This document shows, in pieces, positions 2,610 through 10,146 of a stretch of 64,000 bases of DNA. Under the pieces are notes generated by a model that was not told the origin of the DNA, ran no database searches, and saw only the letters and a program-made list of their open reading frames with translations. A program made the translations under genes and the position numbers. Origin of the DNA: Acidobacteriota bacterium (lineage in GTDB: Bacteria > Acidobacteriota > Vicinamibacteria > Vicinamibacterales > UBA8438); NCBI GenBank assembly GCA_009838525.1, contig VXRJ01000036.1:1-64000 (forward strand), read 5' to 3'. Numbering within the stretch: the first letter of the stretch is position 1; each line of letters starts with the position of its first letter.

Positions 2610-2879
2610 ATGTCTGACGCCAAGACGGTCGGCACGCAAACGATCAAGGCATCCGAATTCAAGGCCCGGTGCCTGAAGCTGATGGACGAGGTGGCGGCTT
2701 CCGGCCAGGAGATCGTCATCTCCAAGAACGGTCGGCCGGTGGCGCGACTGGCGCCCTACCGCACAAGACCGAGGAGTTTGTTCGGCATCGACAAGGGGAA
2801 GATCGCGATTCTTGGCGACATCATCGAGCCGCTGGATGTCGAGTGGGAGGCCGTCACTTACGGGGATGCTGACGGATGA
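2610..2879 (+). CDS. Type II antitoxin, Phd/YefM family
   Basis: 89-residue antitoxin. The N-terminal Phd fold shows IKASEFKARCLKLMDEVA, then EIVISKNGRPVARLAPY, the standard family pattern for DNA binding and dimerisation. The C-terminal 30 residues (FGIDKGKIAILGDI onwards) would be the flexible toxin-neutralising segment. Its TGA overlaps the toxin ATG by 4 bases (ATGA at 2876-2879), so the toxin is translated by coupling. It likely represses its own promoter through the upstream tandem palindrome, more strongly when bound to toxin (conditional cooperativity, known for the family). Confidence 0.88.
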   Translation: MSDAKTVGTQTIKASEFKARCLKLMDEVAASGQEIVISKNGRPVARLAPYRTRPRSLFGIDKGKIAILGDIIEPLDVEWEAVTYGDADG

Positions 2880-3274
2880 TTCTCCTCGATACGCATGTCA
2901 TGCTGTGGATGCGGGTCGGTGAACGACGGTTGGGGCCCATTGCCCGGCGCGCGATCGATCGGGCCTGGAAGAACGGCGAACTTGCCGTCTCCGCGATCTC
3001 GTTCTGGGAAGTAGCGTTGCTTCGGGAAAGGGGCAGAATCCGACTCCCTGGAGACGTCGGTCCGTGGCGCCGGGAACAACTGCAACAGGGAATGATCGAA
3101 ATCCCGGTGGATGGAGAACTCGGCATCCGCGCCGTCAGTCTGCCCGATTTCCATGCCGACCCGGCCGACCGCCTGATTGTGGCTACGGCGCTGGATGGCC
3201 ACCGGCTGGTGACCGCCGACGAGCGCATCCTCGGCTGGTCCGGACGTCTCGACCGCCTGGCGGCAACCGAATGA
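2876..3274 (+). CDS. VapC-type PIN-domain toxin ribonuclease
   Basis: 132-residue PIN protein of the subgroup that pairs with Phd-type antitoxins. The acidic metal-binding set is complete: D5 in LLDTH, E45 in SFWEV, D98 in DPADRL and D115 in TADERI, so it is probably catalytically intact. PIN toxins are Mg-dependent RNases that usually cut tRNA or rRNA and stop growth when the labile antitoxin is lost. The start overlaps the antitoxin stop by 4 bases. The RNA target cannot be predicted from sequence. Confidence 0.88.
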   Translation: MILLDTHVMLWMRVGERRLGPIARRAIDRAWKNGELAVSAISFWEVALLRERGRIRLPGDVGPWRREQLQQGMIEIPVDGELGIRAVSLPDFHADPADRLIVATALDGHRLVTADERILGWSGRLDRLAATE

Positions 3275-3338: not shown

Positions 3339-4640
3339 ATGAGCGCCACCACTACCACCATCGCCTGCATCGCCGATCACGTCAGCGACACGGTGACCCT
3401 GCGAGGCTGGCTGCAGAGCCGCCGGTCGAGCGGCAGAATCCACTTCCTCACCGTGCGCGACGGCACCGGTCTGGTGCAGGCGGTGATGTCGAAGCGGGCG
3501 GTCGGCGACGAGACCTTCCAGCAGGCGGACCACCTGGGGCAGGAAACGTCGATCGTCGTGACCGGTGTCGTGCGGAAGGACGACCGTGCCCCCGGCGGCT
3601 ACGAGCTCGACGTCACGGGGCTCGACGTCGTCGGCCGGTCGTCCGACTATCCCATTACACCGAAGGAGCACGGCGTCGACTACCTGCTCGACCGGCGGCA
3701 TCTCTGGATCCGGAGCCGGCGGCAGGCGGCAATCCTCCGAGTGCGGCACGAAGTGATCGACGCGATTCGCGACTATCTCAACACCCAGGGCTTCGTGCTG
3801 ACGGACACGCCGATCTTCACCCCCGCCGCGTGCGAAGGGACGACGACGCTCTTCCCCGTGCAGTACTTCGAGGATCGGACCGCGTACCTGACGCAGAGCG
3901 GCCAGCTCTACGTCGAGGCAACGGCGATGGCGCTCGGCAAGGTGTACTGCTTCGGTCCGACCTTCCGCGCCGAGAAATCGAAGACCCGGCGGCACCTGAC
4001 GGAGTTCTGGATGGTGGAGCCGGAGATGGCCTACGCCACGCTGGACGACGCCACGGACCTGGCCGAGGCGCTGGTGGCGGCGGTGGTGGCGCGGGTGCTC
4101 GACCAGCGCCGCGCGGAACTTGACATCCTCGAACGCGACACCGCAGCGCTCGAACGCGTCCGCACGCCATTCCCCCGCATCTCGTACGACGAGGCGGTCG
4201 CCATTCTGAAGGGACGCGGACTCCCGTTCGAGTGGGGAGGCGACTTCGGCGGACCGGACGAAACGGCGCTTGCCGAGCACTTCGATCAGCCCGTCGCCAT
4301 CCAGCGGTTCCCGAGCGCAATCAAGGCGTTCTACATGAAGCCCGATCCCGGCCGCCCGGAGCTCTCTCTCTCCGTTGACCTGCTCGCGCCGGAGGGCTAC
4401 GGCGAAATCGTCGGCGGCGGCGAGCGCCTCGACGATCTCGACCTGCTGCTCGAGCGCATCCGCGCGCACGATCTGCCCCAAGAGTCGTTCGAGTGGTACC
4501 TCGACCTGCGCCGTTACGGCACCGTCCCGCACGCCGGCTTCGGCATGGGGATTGAACGGATGGTCGCCTGGATCTGCGGGATCGAGCACGTCCGGGAGAC
4601 AATTCCGTTCCCGCGGATGCTCTACCGGCTGACTCCGTAG
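3339..4640 (+). CDS. asnS: Asparaginyl-tRNA synthetase
   Basis: 433-residue class IIb synthetase that charges tRNA-Asn. The N-terminal OB-fold anticodon-binding domain spans residues 1 to about 105 ([23 protein letters not shown]). The catalytic domain has class II motif 2 ([21 protein letters not shown]) and motif 3 near the C-terminus ([15 protein letters not shown]). The ending [14 protein letters not shown] is typical of AsnRS and separates it from bacterial AspRS, which is longer. The start at 3339 gives the normal length. A TACACT box at 3316-3321 is a weak -10 candidate without a convincing -35. Confidence 0.95.
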
Positions 4641-4737: not shown

Positions 4738-4767
4738 TTGCAGCCCCGCTTTGGAGCGTGCTATAGT
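4738..4767 (+). promoter_or_regulatory. Predicted promoter of the rimP-nusA-infB operon
   Basis: TTGCAG at 4738-4743 and TATAGT at 4762-4767 with an 18-base spacer. The predicted transcript start near 4774 lies just upstream of the terminator-like hairpin at 4796-4822, which would put that hairpin in the 5' leader of the operon rather than only at the end of asnS. Confidence 0.55.
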
Positions 4768-4795
4768 CACTGATTGTACGCAGCGAAGTCCCTCC

Positions 4796-4829
4796 AAGAA
4801 GTGGGCGTTTCGCCCACTTCTTTTCGTTT
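4796..4829 (+). terminator. Terminator-like hairpin in the rimP leader (possible attenuator)
   Basis: A 12-base-pair perfect stem (4796-4807 with 4811-4822) closed by a TTT loop and followed by a T-rich tract (TTTTCGTTT). The stem core is GTGGGC/GCCCAC. It could end asnS transcripts, but it sits downstream of the predicted rimP promoter and 56 bases before the rimP start, which fits an attenuator. From memory, a GTGGGC hairpin upstream of rimP is common in other bacteria. An SD-like GGAGGT at 4845-4849 lies about 30 bases before the rimP ATG. Confidence 0.7.
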
Positions 4830-4878
4830 GGGGAGCTTTGCACGGAGGTAACAGCGGTTCGGGAGACGAAGCACGGCG

Positions 4879-5466
4879 ATGACCCGCGAGGATCGGGTGG
4901 CGCGCGTGCGGACGGTGGCGGCGAGAATCGCCCGGGACTTCGGGCTGGAGTTGTTCGATGTCCAGTTCCGGCGTGAGGCAATCGGCTGGGTGCTGCGGAT
5001 CATGATTGATCGGGTGCCACAGGAGGCAGGCGAGACAGCCGACGCCCCGAAACGGGCAGGAGGCGGAGCGACGGACAGCGCGGCGGAAGGTGTGACCGTG
5101 GACGATTGCCAGCGCGTGAGCCGCGACCTGAGCGTTGTGCTCGATGCGGAGTTCACGTTCGATCAGGCGTACACGCTGGAGGTGTCGTCGCCGGGTCTGG
5201 ATCGCCCGTTACGGCACGTGGCCGACTGCCGGCGGTTTCGGGGCCGGCTGGCGCGGTTCGTGACATCGGAGTCGGTGCAGGGTCAGCGGTTCGTTCTGGG
5301 CCGAATCGCTGGCATCGAAACGGTTGACAATGCCGCAACGGAGGATGGAACGGGAGACGGAGACGCGCCTGGGCCGGAGCCTCGCGTGGTAGTAAGCGCC
5401 GGCAGGCGAACCTACCGAATTCCGTGGTCGCTCGTGACGCGTGCCCGGCTGGAAGTGGACGTGTAA
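4879..5466 (+). CDS. rimP: Ribosome maturation factor RimP
   Basis: 195-residue 30S maturation factor that helps S12 and neighbours assemble onto 16S rRNA. The N-terminal domain has the paired LELFDVQFRREAIGWVLRIMID and the conserved VTVDDCQRVSRDLSVVLD, then YTLEVSSPGLDRPL; the C-terminal SH3-like domain follows. It is longer than the usual ~150 residues because of an acidic/glycine-rich loop around residues 47-72 and another around 150-170. First gene of the operon; the nusA ATG is 13 bases after its stop. Confidence 0.93.
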   Translation: MTREDRVARVRTVAARIARDFGLELFDVQFRREAIGWVLRIMIDRVPQEAGETADAPKRAGGGATDSAAEGVTVDDCQRVSRDLSVVLDAEFTFDQAYTLEVSSPGLDRPLRHVADCRRFRGRLARFVTSESVQGQRFVLGRIAGIETVDNAATEDGTGDGDAPGPEPRVVVSAGRRTYRIPWSLVTRARLEVDV

Positions 5467-5479
5467 CGGGAACCGCACG

Positions 5480-6784
5480 ATGAGCACATTGAACCGGCAG
5501 ATGATCGAGGCGGCCGCGAAGGAGAAAGGGGTCGAACCCGACGTGATCATCGCGGCCATCGAGGACGCCCTGCTTACCGCGTCGCGCCGCCACTTCGACG
5601 AGAACCAGGTCTTGCGCACCCGGTTCAACCCGGAGACGGGGGTGGTCGAGCTCTTCTCCGTGCGCCGCATCGTCGACACCGTCGAAGACGCCGTGAACGA
5701 GATCTCGCTTGCCGAGGCGCAGGATCTGTACGGCGAGGAAGCGGAAGTCGACATGGAGATCGAGTTCCCGGAACCGACCGACGTCCTCGGGCGCATTGCC
5801 GCGTCGACGGCCAAGCAGGTGCTGACGCAGAAGGTACGGGACGCTGAGCGGGACAACATCTACGACGAGTACCACGACCAGGTGGGGGAAGTGATCGGCG
5901 GCGTCGTCAAGCGGTTCGAGAACGGCGACATCGTCGTCGAGGCGGGAAGGCTGGAGGCGCTGCTTCCGCGCAGAGAGCAGTCACGCGCGGAGAACTACAG
6001 CGTCGGCGACCGAATCCGCGCTGTCATTCGCGAGGTGAACAAGAACGCGAAGGGGCCGCAGGTCATTCTGTCGCGGACCGATCCGGCCCTGCTCGTGCAG
6101 TTGTTCCGGCAGGAAGTGCCGGAGATCTACGACGGCATCGTCAACATCATGGGCGCCGTCCGCGAGGCGGGCGAGCGGGCGAAGGTGGCGGTCCACACGA
6201 CGGAACGGGACATCGACGCGGTCGGCGCGTGCGTCGGCATGAAGGGAACGCGGGTGCAGGGAATCATCCGCGAACTGCGTGGCGAGAAGATCGACATCGT
6301 CGAATGGTCGGACGACCCCGCCACGTTCGTCACCAACGCCCTCAGTCCGGCGCGGACCCAGCGCGTGAGCGTGGTCGCGGGCGCGGACCCGGCCATCGAA
6401 GTGCTGGTGGACGAGAGCCAGACCTCGCTCGCGATTGGCCGGAAGGGACAGAACGTCCGGCTCGCCGCCCGGCTGACCGGTTGGCGCATCGATATCAAGA
6501 GCGAGAGTCAGAAGCGGCAGGAAGTGGAAGCGCGATTCGATGATCTCGAGGAGGGTGAGGCGGCGCTCACGCTTCCGGGGTTGACCGAGGCCCAGTTGAT
6601 CGCGTTGAGCGAAGCGGGGCTGGACACCGCCGAGCGCCTGCTGGAGGTCGAAATCTCCACCCTGGCTGACGTGGCGGGCGTGGACAACGCGACGGCGACC
6701 GCGCTCCGGACCGCCGTGCGGGAGCAGGTTGACGCCGCGGAGCGGGCGGCGGCGGAAGCCGTAGGTGATAGCGGAGCCGAGTAG
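5480..6784 (+). CDS. nusA: Transcription termination/antitermination factor NusA
   Basis: 434-residue RNA-polymerase-associated factor controlling pausing, termination and antitermination. Domain order: N-terminal polymerase-binding domain (1-125), S1 domain with VVKRFENGDIVVEAGRLEALLP (about 140-200), two KH domains including VGACVGMKGTRVQGI and LAIGRKGQNVRLAARLTGW (about 205-345), and one C-terminal helix-hairpin-helix region (LPGLTEAQLIALSEAGL and ADVAGVD). It lacks the duplicated acidic repeats of E. coli NusA, as in most non-proteobacteria. I chose the ATG at 5480; longer in-frame starts run into rimP. Confidence 0.95.
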   Translation: MSTLNRQMIEAAAKEKGVEPDVIIAAIEDALLTASRRHFDENQVLRTRFNPETGVVELFSVRRIVDTVEDAVNEISLAEAQDLYGEEAEVDMEIEFPEPTDVLGRIAASTAKQVLTQKVRDAERDNIYDEYHDQVGEVIGGVVKRFENGDIVVEAGRLEALLPRREQSRAENYSVGDRIRAVIREVNKNAKGPQVILSRTDPALLVQLFRQEVPEIYDGIVNIMGAVREAGERAKVAVHTTERDIDAVGACVGMKGTRVQGIIRELRGEKIDIVEWSDDPATFVTNALSPARTQRVSVVAGADPAIEVLVDESQTSLAIGRKGQNVRLAARLTGWRIDIKSESQKRQEVEARFDDLEEGEAALTLPGLTEAQLIALSEAGLDTAERLLEVEISTLADVAGVDNATATALRTAVREQVDAAERAAAEAVGDSGAE

Positions 6785-6820: not shown

Positions 6821-9751
6821 ATGATTCGACTCTTCCTCATCGCGCGGGAACTGGGCATCGAGACCCAGGAAGTGGTCGAGTTGCTCCGCGAGCTCGGCAT
6901 CGAGGCGAAGAGCGCATCGAGCACGGTGGAAGAGATCGTCGCTACGCAGTTCTGCAAGCGCATCGCCAGAGAACGGAACGTCGCCCTGCCGGACGGCCCG
7001 CTCTTTCAACAGAAGCCGGCGACGAAAGGCAGGAAGGGGGCCAAAGGCAAGGCGGAGCCGGCGCCCGCCCCGAGACCTGCCCTCGGCAAGCCGCGGCTGG
7101 TCAAGGTACCCAAGCCCAAGCCGGTTGAGGAAGAGACGCCAGCCGAGGATGTAGCCGCAGCCCAACCGTCGGAAGCGGCCTCGACGGCGCCCGCGGAGGC
7201 AGAGGCTCCGCCTGCCGTAGCGCCGAAGAAAACCCCTCCGAAGAAGCACTTCGCGGCCGGTGGACGCCTGCGGCTGCAGGTGGAAACCGACGCTGAGCCG
7301 ACTCCGGTCCGGCCCGAGAAGATCGTCCCCGCCGCCACGGCTCCGGAACCCGCACCGGCGACCGAGGCGGACGGGCAACCGGCGCCGCCGGCCGCAGCCG
7401 CCGCGCCGCCCGCAACCGCTACGCCGCCCGCCGCCGCTCCACCGGCCGGTGCGCCACCTGCCGCCGCGGCGAGCACACCAGCCTCCGAGGCTCCCGTCGC
7501 CGCGTCGCCGGCCTCCGAGGCCGCAACGCCAGCCGCCGCGGCGAGTCCACCGGAGGCCGTTCCGGCGGTTTCCGAACCCCCTGCGGCCCCGCCGGCGGCG
7601 GTCGCGCCACCGGCGATCGCGCCACCGGCTGCCGCCGCTGCCGCATCGGCGGCCCCGGCGGCTCGCGTGGCGGCCGGAAGAGCACCGCTCGCGCAGCCGG
7701 CCCGCCCCACCGGCCGCGCCGTACCCCCGAAGCTCCGCCTGCGGGTGGAGGAACCGAGACGGGTCGCGCGACCCCCGGTGCAGCCGAGCGCCGCCCCGGC
7801 CGGGACGGCGCGCACGATTCCGGCCCAGCCGGTCAGGCCGCCGGCAGTTCGACCTCTGCCGCCCCGGCCGGCGGTCGGCGGTTATCGTCCGCCACCCCGG
7901 CCGCATCATCGTCCGGGCGGACGCCGCTCGCAGTACCGGCGTGCGCGCGCCGCCTCGACGCCGGCCGCGCCGGCGCCGCCGCCCCCCGTCACCCGCACCA
8001 TCACCGTCACCGAGGGCATGACGGTGAAGGACCTGGCCGAGCGCCTGGAGGTGACACCCAAGGACATCCTCAAGAAGCTGATCGAGCGGCGCGTGATGAT
8101 GACCATCAACACGACGCTCGACGAGGAAACGGCGACGACGATCGCTCGCGAGTTCGGGGCGGACGTCACGATGCGCACCTTCGAGGAAGAGATGGGTGTG
8201 ATCGAAGCCGAGGAGGCGAACCCGGAGGATCTGGTGACCCGCGCACCGGTCGTCACCGTCATGGGACACGTCGACCACGGCAAGACGACGCTGCTCGACG
8301 CCATCCGGGAAACGAAGGTGGCGGAAGGGGAAGCGGGCGGCATCACGCAGCACATCGGCGCCTACGCGGTCGAGATCAACAAGCGGCGCATCGTCTTCCT
8401 CGATACGCCGGGTCACGAGGCGTTTACGCTGATGCGGGCACGCGGCGCGCAGGTGACCGACATCGTCGTTCTGGTCGTGGCGGCTGACGACGGCGTGATG
8501 CCGCAGACCCAGGAGGCGATCGATCACGCGAGAGCCGCCGAGGTGCCGATCATCGTCGCCATCAACAAGATCGACAAGTCGGACGCCAACCCGGACCGCG
8601 TCAAGCAGGAGCTGGCGGAGCGTGACCTGGCGCCGGAGGACTGGGGCGGGACCACGGTGACCGTCCCGGTATCCGCGAAGAAGAAACAGAACCTGGATGG
8701 CCTGCTCGAGATGATCCTGCTCGTGACCGAGCTGGAGGAGACCAAGGCGAACCCGAAGCGGACCGCCACCGGCACCGTGCTGGAGGCGAAGGTGGACCGG
8801 GGCCGTGGTCCGGTCGCCACCGTTCTGGTCCAGGACGGCACGCTCAGCGTCGGCGACAACTTCATCGCCGGCATCGTCGTCGGCAAGGTGCGCGCGCTGC
8901 ATGACGATCTGGGCCAGACGACCCGTGAGGTCGGGCCTTCCAGCCCGGTGGAGGTGCTGGGGCTGACGGCGCTCCCGCAGCCGGGCGACGCGTTCCAGGC
9001 GGTCGCCGACGCGGCCAAGGCACGGCAGATCGCGCTCCTCCGCCAGACGCACGCCAAGGAAAAGGCGCTCGGCGGACGGGGCCAGCGGCTGACGCTCGAG
9101 TCGTTGCAGCAACAGCTCGAAGCGGGCACCGCCAAGGAGCTCCCCATCGTCATCAAGGCCGACGTGCAGGGGTCGGCCGAAGTGCTGGCCGACTCGCTCG
9201 GCAAGCTCGGCGACGAACGAGTGAAGACGCGCGTCATCCACACCGGCGTCGGGGCGATCAGCGAGTCGGACGTCCTGCTCGCCTCCACATCGAACGCCGT
9301 CATCGTCGGCTTCAATGTCCGGCCGGACCGGAACGCGACCACGGCGGTGGAACGCGAAGGGGTCGACCTGCGGCTCCACTCCGTCATCTACGACGTGACG
9401 GACGAGTTGAAGAAGGCGCTGGCCGGCATGCTGGAGCCGACAACCAAGGAAACCCAGCTCGGCGCCGCGGAAGTGCGGCAGACCTTCAAGGTTCCCAAGT
9501 TCGGCACCGCGGCAGGCTGCCTGGTAACGGACGGCATGATCACGCGGTCGGGCGATGCCCAGGCCCGGCTGGTCCGGGACGGCGTGGTCGTGTACGAGGG
9601 CAGGATCGGATCCCTGCGGCGATTCAAGGACGACGTCAACGAGGTCAAGAACGGCCTCGAGTGCGGCATCGCGTTCGAGAAGTACGCTGACGTGAAGGTG
9701 GGCGACGTAATCGAATCGTTCACCGTCGAGAAGGTGGCCGCCACCGTCTGA
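6821..9751 (+). CDS. infB: Translation initiation factor IF-2
   Basis: 976-residue GTPase that brings fMet-tRNA to the 30S subunit and drives subunit joining. An N-terminal IF2N-like helical domain (1-65) is followed by an unusually long Ala/Pro-rich linker (about 65-385), then a second IF2N domain ([17 protein letters not shown]). The G domain has G1 [10 protein letters not shown]3 DTPGHEAF and G4 NKID, all intact. Domains II-IV follow, ending with the fMet-tRNA-binding C2 domain. The linker is poorly conserved and probably disordered. infB is followed within 2 bases by rbfA. Confidence 0.96.
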
Positions 9752-9753
9752 CC

Positions 9754-10146
9754 GTGGCGCACGGTACGCGGACGCTGCGCGTCGCCGAGCGCGTGCGAGA
9801 GGAACTGAGCACGCTGCTCACCCGATCCGTCCGCGACCCCGGCGTGGCGGGCGTCATCATCACCCTGGTCCGCATGACTCCCGACCTGCAGATCGCCCGT
9901 GTGTATTACACGGTCGCGGACAGCGCCGACCGCCGCGACGTCGCACGCGGGCTCAGGCGGGCGCGACCGTTTCTCCGCCGTGCGGTGAGTGAACGGCTGC
10001 AACTCCGCCGCGCGCCCGACCTGCAGTTCCTGCACGACAACTCGGCGGAACAGCAGGACCGGATTGCGCGCATCTTCGACGATCTGGAGCGCGAGCGCGA
10101 CGCGGCTCCATCCGACACCGGCGACGACAAGACCGATGGCTCCTGA
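9754..10146 (+). CDS. rbfA: 30S ribosome-binding factor RbfA
   Basis: 130-residue KH-fold protein needed for 16S 5'-end processing and 30S maturation. Shows the family pattern RVAERVREELSTLL, DPGVAGVIITLVRMTPDLQIARVYYTV and LRRAPDLQFLHD. It uses a GTG start 2 bases after the infB stop and overlaps the following DHH gene by 11 bases, consistent with a tightly coupled operon. Confidence 0.93.
   Translation: MAHGTRTLRVAERVREELSTLLTRSVRDPGVAGVIITLVRMTPDLQIARVYYTVADSADRRDVARGLRRARPFLRRAVSERLQLRRAPDLQFLHDNSAEQQDRIARIFDDLERERDAAPSDTGDDKTDGS

Follow-up and report, generated by a model that had tools for sequence, protein, structure and literature searches.

A rimP-leader terminator hairpin phased with an extended −10 promoter ahead of nusA in an Acidobacteriota genome, a candidate NusA-responsive attenuator

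The leader of the rimP-nusA operon in the window analysed here (the whole stretch of 64,000 nucleotides) contains an extended −10 promoter and, a short distance downstream, a perfect hairpin with a T-tract. The anatomy of this element, its conservation among relatives, its phasing with the promoter and its residence with rimP are established. Judged by its sequence, the element appears to be the published rimP-leader, and the idea that NusA feeds back on its own operon, which the initial annotation had put forward for this locus, appears to be right, although not new, having been published in 2010.

Promoter, hairpin and operon

The promoter TTGCAG-18-TATAGT proposed in the initial annotation is present in full, with the −35-like hexamer separated by an 18-nt spacer from TATAGT at 4762–4767 (Table 1). 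The annotation had overlooked a TG at 4759–4760, which makes the downstream box the extended −10 element TGCTATAGT and may compensate for a −35 hexamer that matches three of six consensus bases. A generic promoter scan of the window did not list this promoter. Transcription is predicted to start near 4774.

The 12-bp stem with a T-tract that had been described ahead of rimP was found as a perfect hairpin, AAGAAGTGGGCG-TTT-CGCCCACTTCTT followed by TTCGTTTGGGG, in which seven of the 12 pairs are G-C and the loop is three bases long; it ends 56 nt before the rimP ATG. The earlier estimate of about 20 bases between promoter and hairpin agrees with the ~22 nt counted from the inferred start, the distance from the −10 box being 28 nt. 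Folding of these first ~22 nt alone gave no stable structure, and the window leader had a fold z of −1.97, with six of 200 shuffles equally stable. A terminator scan covering 12 kb of the window returned six terminator-like sites against 4.4 (sd 2.0) in shuffles, a count that, for the window considered on its own, exceeds chance only slightly and does not stand above the shuffles. The rimP-leader hairpin is the longest and first-listed of the six, and the scan listed no second terminator-like site between the upstream gene and rimP. Elsewhere in the same genome, the bare stem occurs at one further place, with no T-tract on either strand.

The four genes downstream are presumably co-transcribed, and the NusA encoded here has the usual domain set. 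Upstream of the leader lies a class II tRNA synthetase gene (Pfam), which we take to be asnS; it ends at 4640 on the same strand, ~160 nt before the hairpin. Further upstream, at 2610–3274, two adjoining short ORFs resemble by eye an antitoxin and PIN-domain toxin pair.

Table 1 Features of the rimP-nusA leader and operon, in window coordinates.
Feature	Position	Strand	Remarks
−35-like hexamer TTGCAG	4738–4743	+	3/6 consensus positions; TTGC recurs in relatives
Extended −10 element TGCTATAGT	4759–4767	+	TGNTANNNT in 67/72 loci, window included
Predicted first ~22 nt of transcript	4774–4795	+	Start inferred ~7 nt past the −10 box
rimP-leader terminator hairpin (putative)	4796–4822	+	12 bp, loop TTT; core GTGGG:CCCAC at 4801–4805 and 4813–4817
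Two-part T-tract TTCTTTTCGTTT, then GGGG	4818–4833	+	First 5 bases double as outer stem; TTT and GGG at same offsets in relatives
rimP	4879–5466	+	Pfam RimP_N, 2.7e-21
nusA	5480–6784	+	Pfam: N-terminal, S1 and KH domains
infB	6821–9751	+	Pfam
rbfA	9754–10146	+	Pfam

Conservation of the hairpin and its promoter

A search with the NusA of the window provided the best 80 of 447 relatives, 66 of these 80 loci being titled acidobacterial, which together with the window made 81 loci. The motif GTGGG...CC(C/G)(A/G)C with a T-rich tail, a pattern that demands GTGGG, was present in 72 of the 81 including the window, and near variants occur in L016, L068 and L072; in L016 letters are changed on both arms and pairing is retained. 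Four of the 79 loci judged (L054, L067, L069 and L078) lack the hairpin motif; L031, with just 50 nt of sequence ahead of the gene, and L076, in which no rimP was found, were left out of the judgement. The hairpin therefore occurs clearly beyond chance and is conserved in relatives, one of the two points on which the initial annotation had let its reading stand or fall. Because the constancy of GTGGG is partly built into the selection pattern, the count was repeated with a motif-free hairpin scan, which placed GTGGG within the top hairpin at 73 of the 77 loci that have one; L073 is a miss solely because a second hairpin outranks it.

The 72 loci hold 68 distinct hairpins. Core positions 1, 3, 4 and 5 are G-C in all 68, and position 2 is T-A in 64 and T-G in four, whereas the spacing between GTGGG and CCCAC ranges from 4 to 9 bases. 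Since the core is almost invariant, it yields nearly no covariation signal. The alignment of rimP upstream regions suggested in the initial annotation did reveal one covarying outer pair: pair 2 is A-T in 34 hairpins, G-T in 16, G-C in nine and T-A in two, so that 61 of 68 are paired against 53.0 in shuffles, with none of 2000 shuffles reaching 61. Outer pairs 3–7 show no pairing above shuffles among the same 68 hairpins. These patterns support the stem as an RNA structure, with a core that seems to be held by letter, beyond pairing, and a role of the same core letters at the DNA level is possible.

The tail is likewise patterned, with T at positions 1, 4 and 5 in all 72 loci, T at positions 9–11 in 64, 70 and 65 of them, and G at positions 14–16 in 49, 60 and 48. 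The leaders of L037, L047, L051, L053, L055 and L061 also contain a small hairpin of the form CTGG-loop-CCAG, whose loop is A-rich and which extends into the base of the terminator stem.

Long-range pairing in the leader was considered as well. A helix enclosing the hairpin, in which the leader would pair with the GGG block downstream, is plausible in single folds and was rejected, as true leader-downstream pairs were no better than swapped ones (z 0.04 for tail bases 8–26 in 51 non-redundant loci; z −0.25 in 68 loci). Clade-wide, the leader alone has a mean fold z of −0.75 against +0.18 for a control sequence; the leader of the window is without such stability.

The promoter, which lies upstream of the hairpin and downstream of asnS, is conserved too. 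Of 72 loci, 67 have TGNTANNNT no more than 65 nt ahead of the hairpin, compared with 3.5 in shuffles (maximum 10), and TTGC stands at a spacer of 16–19 nt in 25 of 66 loci, compared with 1.1. The −10 box precedes GTGGG by 28–38 nt in 63 of the 67 loci (33 nt in the window) and by 9–10 nt in the remaining four, all of which are titled Rokuibacteriota or Rokubacteria. A spacing of 8–10 nt is found at L116 and L122–L131 and at L074, L077, L079 and L080. In a set of 12 Rokubacteria-type loci, which may overlap further with the earlier four beyond L116 being the genome of L074, the extended −10 is present in all 12, at 8–10 nt from GTGGG in 11 and at 16 nt in one. At a distance of 8–10 nt, the predicted RNA begins at the hairpin's own A-run. 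Outside the 12, L119 and L120 have no extended −10 within the 50 nt inspected. The extended −10 appears in one of 28 loci from other Acidobacteriota and in three of 15 and three of five loci from two other phyla; the phasing of promoter and hairpin is thus a lineage feature and not a universal one.

The hairpin resides with rimP irrespective of the presence of asnS upstream. In the phylum of the window, a stricter pattern, GTGGGCN{2,7}GCCCACTTTT, matches at least 94 of 297 genomes, against 10 for the backward control; this is a lower bound, as the window's own copy escapes the pattern through one C in its T-tract (TTCTT). Among the matches fetched, rimP and nusA lie directly downstream at 28 of 30 loci (the exceptions being L085 and L088). 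In Candidatus Rokuibacteriota, the phylum of L074, the pattern is found in 14 of 40 genomes and rimP and nusA follow the hairpin in all 14, with the searched T-tract facing rimP in 12; in the other two, L119 and L120, the full TTTT pattern matched on the opposite strand. Looser motifs occur in 8 of 61 genomes in the phylum of L081 and 22 of 59 in that of L073; of the loci fetched, 5 of 10 and 15 of 20, respectively, have rimP downstream; for the looser GTGGG motif in these two phyla together, this makes 20 of 30.

Two variants of the surroundings were seen along the way. In one Acidobacteriota family (L101, L103, L105 and L107–L113, with the hairpin around locus position 1501), conservation extends over a longer stretch of the rimP leader: a 7-bp helix encloses an inner hairpin, CCGTGA...CACCGG, immediately ahead of the terminator, and among ten aligned sequences two of the 22 predicted pairs show changes on both sides that preserve pairing. 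In L177 (1408–1482) and L178 (1398–1473), the GTGGG of the hairpin at position 1501 is preceded by a tRNA-Gly (CCC) gene, the gap being 18 and 27 nt, respectively, an arrangement similar to that of metY before rimP in E. coli.

Identity of the element and regulation by NusA

The rimP-leader was described by Naville & Gautheret in 2010 (PMC2965389) as a GGGc...gCCC terminator with a U-stretch, located 4–130 nt before rimP-nusA-infB, and was called by its discoverers the most ubiquitous attenuator. The window has each of these features: the stem GTGGGCG-TTT-CGCCCAC at 4801–4817, the T-rich TTCTTTTCGTTT directly past it, a distance of 56 nt to the rimP of a rimP-nusA-infB cluster and specificity for rimP, as seen in 28 of 30 fetched phylum matches. 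The likeness extends to terminator type, position and the proposed regulator, since the passages of PMC2965389 on this motif argue from its high conservation and the lack of a visible antiterminator for a motif-recognising protein, with NusA the best candidate. The same passages report no larger conserved elements in the general rimP-leader, and section 7 of that paper does not mention an Acidobacteriota-type genome, an extended −10 with short, fixed spacing to the hairpin or a second TTT and GGG after the T-tract, all of which are found here.

The covariance search proposed in the initial annotation came out differently. RF01770, the gammaproteobacterial rimP leader, has the same operon position, but the model did not match the window at its gathering score or at E values up to 10 and was absent from the seven relatives scanned, whereas the E. 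coli control scored 102 bits. An Rfam scan of the window gave no relevant match. The hairpin before rimP in E. coli K-12, GGGC-TTTA-GGCCC with a T-tract, is nevertheless similar to that of the window.

For B. subtilis, the primary paper on NusA autoregulation is reportedly Mondal 2016. In the account given by a 2025 review (PMC12288461), B. subtilis NusA is autoregulated through NusA-stimulated intrinsic termination in the 5' leader of its operon, the same arrangement that is proposed here. The B. subtilis leader is given as about 180 nt in PMC2965389, compared with ~22 nt to the hairpin and ~105 nt to rimP here, counted from the inferred start. E. coli NusA is said in PMC6511841 to help to regulate its own operon, with terminators t1 and t2 located before rimP. 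Premature termination ahead of rimP-nusA, as the initial annotation had it, remains the best reading of the window, given a conserved hairpin with a conserved promoter upstream of it.

NusA helps terminator hairpins to form in the RNA exit channel. In the mechanism that we propose, RNA polymerase would start at the extended −10 promoter near 4774 and transcribe ~22 nt; the GTGGGC hairpin and U-tract would then be made, and a fraction of complexes would release an RNA of ~50 nt, while the remaining complexes would read through into rimP-nusA-infB-rbfA. More NusA would give more termination near 4824–4832 and less nusA transcription. The leader is short, ~22 nt with no stable fold, and can hardly accommodate an aptamer or a leader peptide; the likely regulator is therefore a factor that acts on the polymerase during elongation. 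We consider it probable that NusA raises termination at this rimP-leader attenuator and so limits transcription of nusA; termination by the hairpin and its dependence on NusA in this organism are both presumed in this.

The strongest competitor, which we regard as unlikely though worth keeping in view, is a premature terminator without regulation, letting a constant fraction of polymerases through, or a hairpin whose main role is to protect the 5' end of the mRNA. It would account for the fact that no sensor or antiterminator was found, leader-downstream pairing being alike in true and swapped pairs, and for the placement of the hairpin in Rokubacteria-type genomes, where it forms the predicted 5' end. 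A mere stem, however, would not require a core this invariant or a T-tract that is constant on just one side, and the review passage in PMC12288461 reports autoregulation of B. subtilis NusA by leader termination.

The near-perfect palindrome with its constant arms adjoins a promoter and, in Rokubacteria-type genomes, extends over the predicted start, with a pattern that reads on both strands in 12 of 14 matching genomes. A DNA operator bound by a dimeric regulator could look like this, yet the arms lie anywhere between 4 and 9 bases apart, the clade of the window has its constant T-tract on the 3' side only, and both arms are altered in L016 and still pair; we therefore hold an operator to be very improbable. 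Least credible of all is an ordinary end-of-gene terminator of asnS, for although that gene ends close by on the same strand, a conserved promoter stands between the two and the hairpin accompanies rimP in 57 of 69 judged loci that have no asnS within 700 nt upstream, with only 12 of the 69 having one (three further loci were too short).

A terminator-poor genome sample

Canonical intrinsic terminators are not in excess over shuffles in 338.5 kb of the window's own genome. Under a strict rule (a perfect stem of at least 7 bp, five G-C pairs and five T in seven), both strands of 338,502 bases, a non-random sample consisting of the window, included for its hairpin, and 20 contig-start stretches (L143–L162), hold two sites, one of which is the rimP-leader hairpin, and three block shuffles gave 2, 0 and 0. 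The same rule found 16 sites in 100,000 bases of E. coli, with 0, 2 and 1 in shuffles; given the different G+C content of E. coli, the comparison with shuffles is the fairer one. Three looser settings gave 2 sites against 4–6 in shuffles, 15 against 14–17 and 82 against 88–104 in the window's own genome, and 21 against 0–3, 32 against 6–12 and 53 against 14–28 in E. coli. Terminators without a good T-tract escape the rule. A near-identical rule applied to both strands of the 81 loci gave 74 sites, of which 68 are rimP-like.

A rho gene is present, above its family cut-off, and Rho may carry most of the termination in this genome. A literature search found no paper combining intrinsic terminators, Acidobacteria and Rho-dependent termination. 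What seems new beyond the 2010 description are the core statistics for Acidobacteriota, the phased extended −10, the fusion of promoter and terminator in Rokubacteria-type genomes and the contrast with a terminator-poor sample.

The known attenuator is thus extended to an Acidobacteriota-type genome with its anatomy quantified, and the fixed short spacing of promoter and hairpin leaves scant space for a sensor of the classical type and makes a direct test of NusA simple. Tentatively, and as a possibility rather than an expectation, terminator-poor lineages may keep one strong, promoter-phased terminator in the nusA leader as a dedicated gauge of NusA-assisted termination, promoter and terminator being fused in Rokubacteria-type genomes so that the first ~27 nt of the transcript would be the terminator. 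The retention of this terminator amid a terminator-poor genome sample is telling, and a terminator both rare and conserved, standing before nusA, would be fitting for a NusA gauge.
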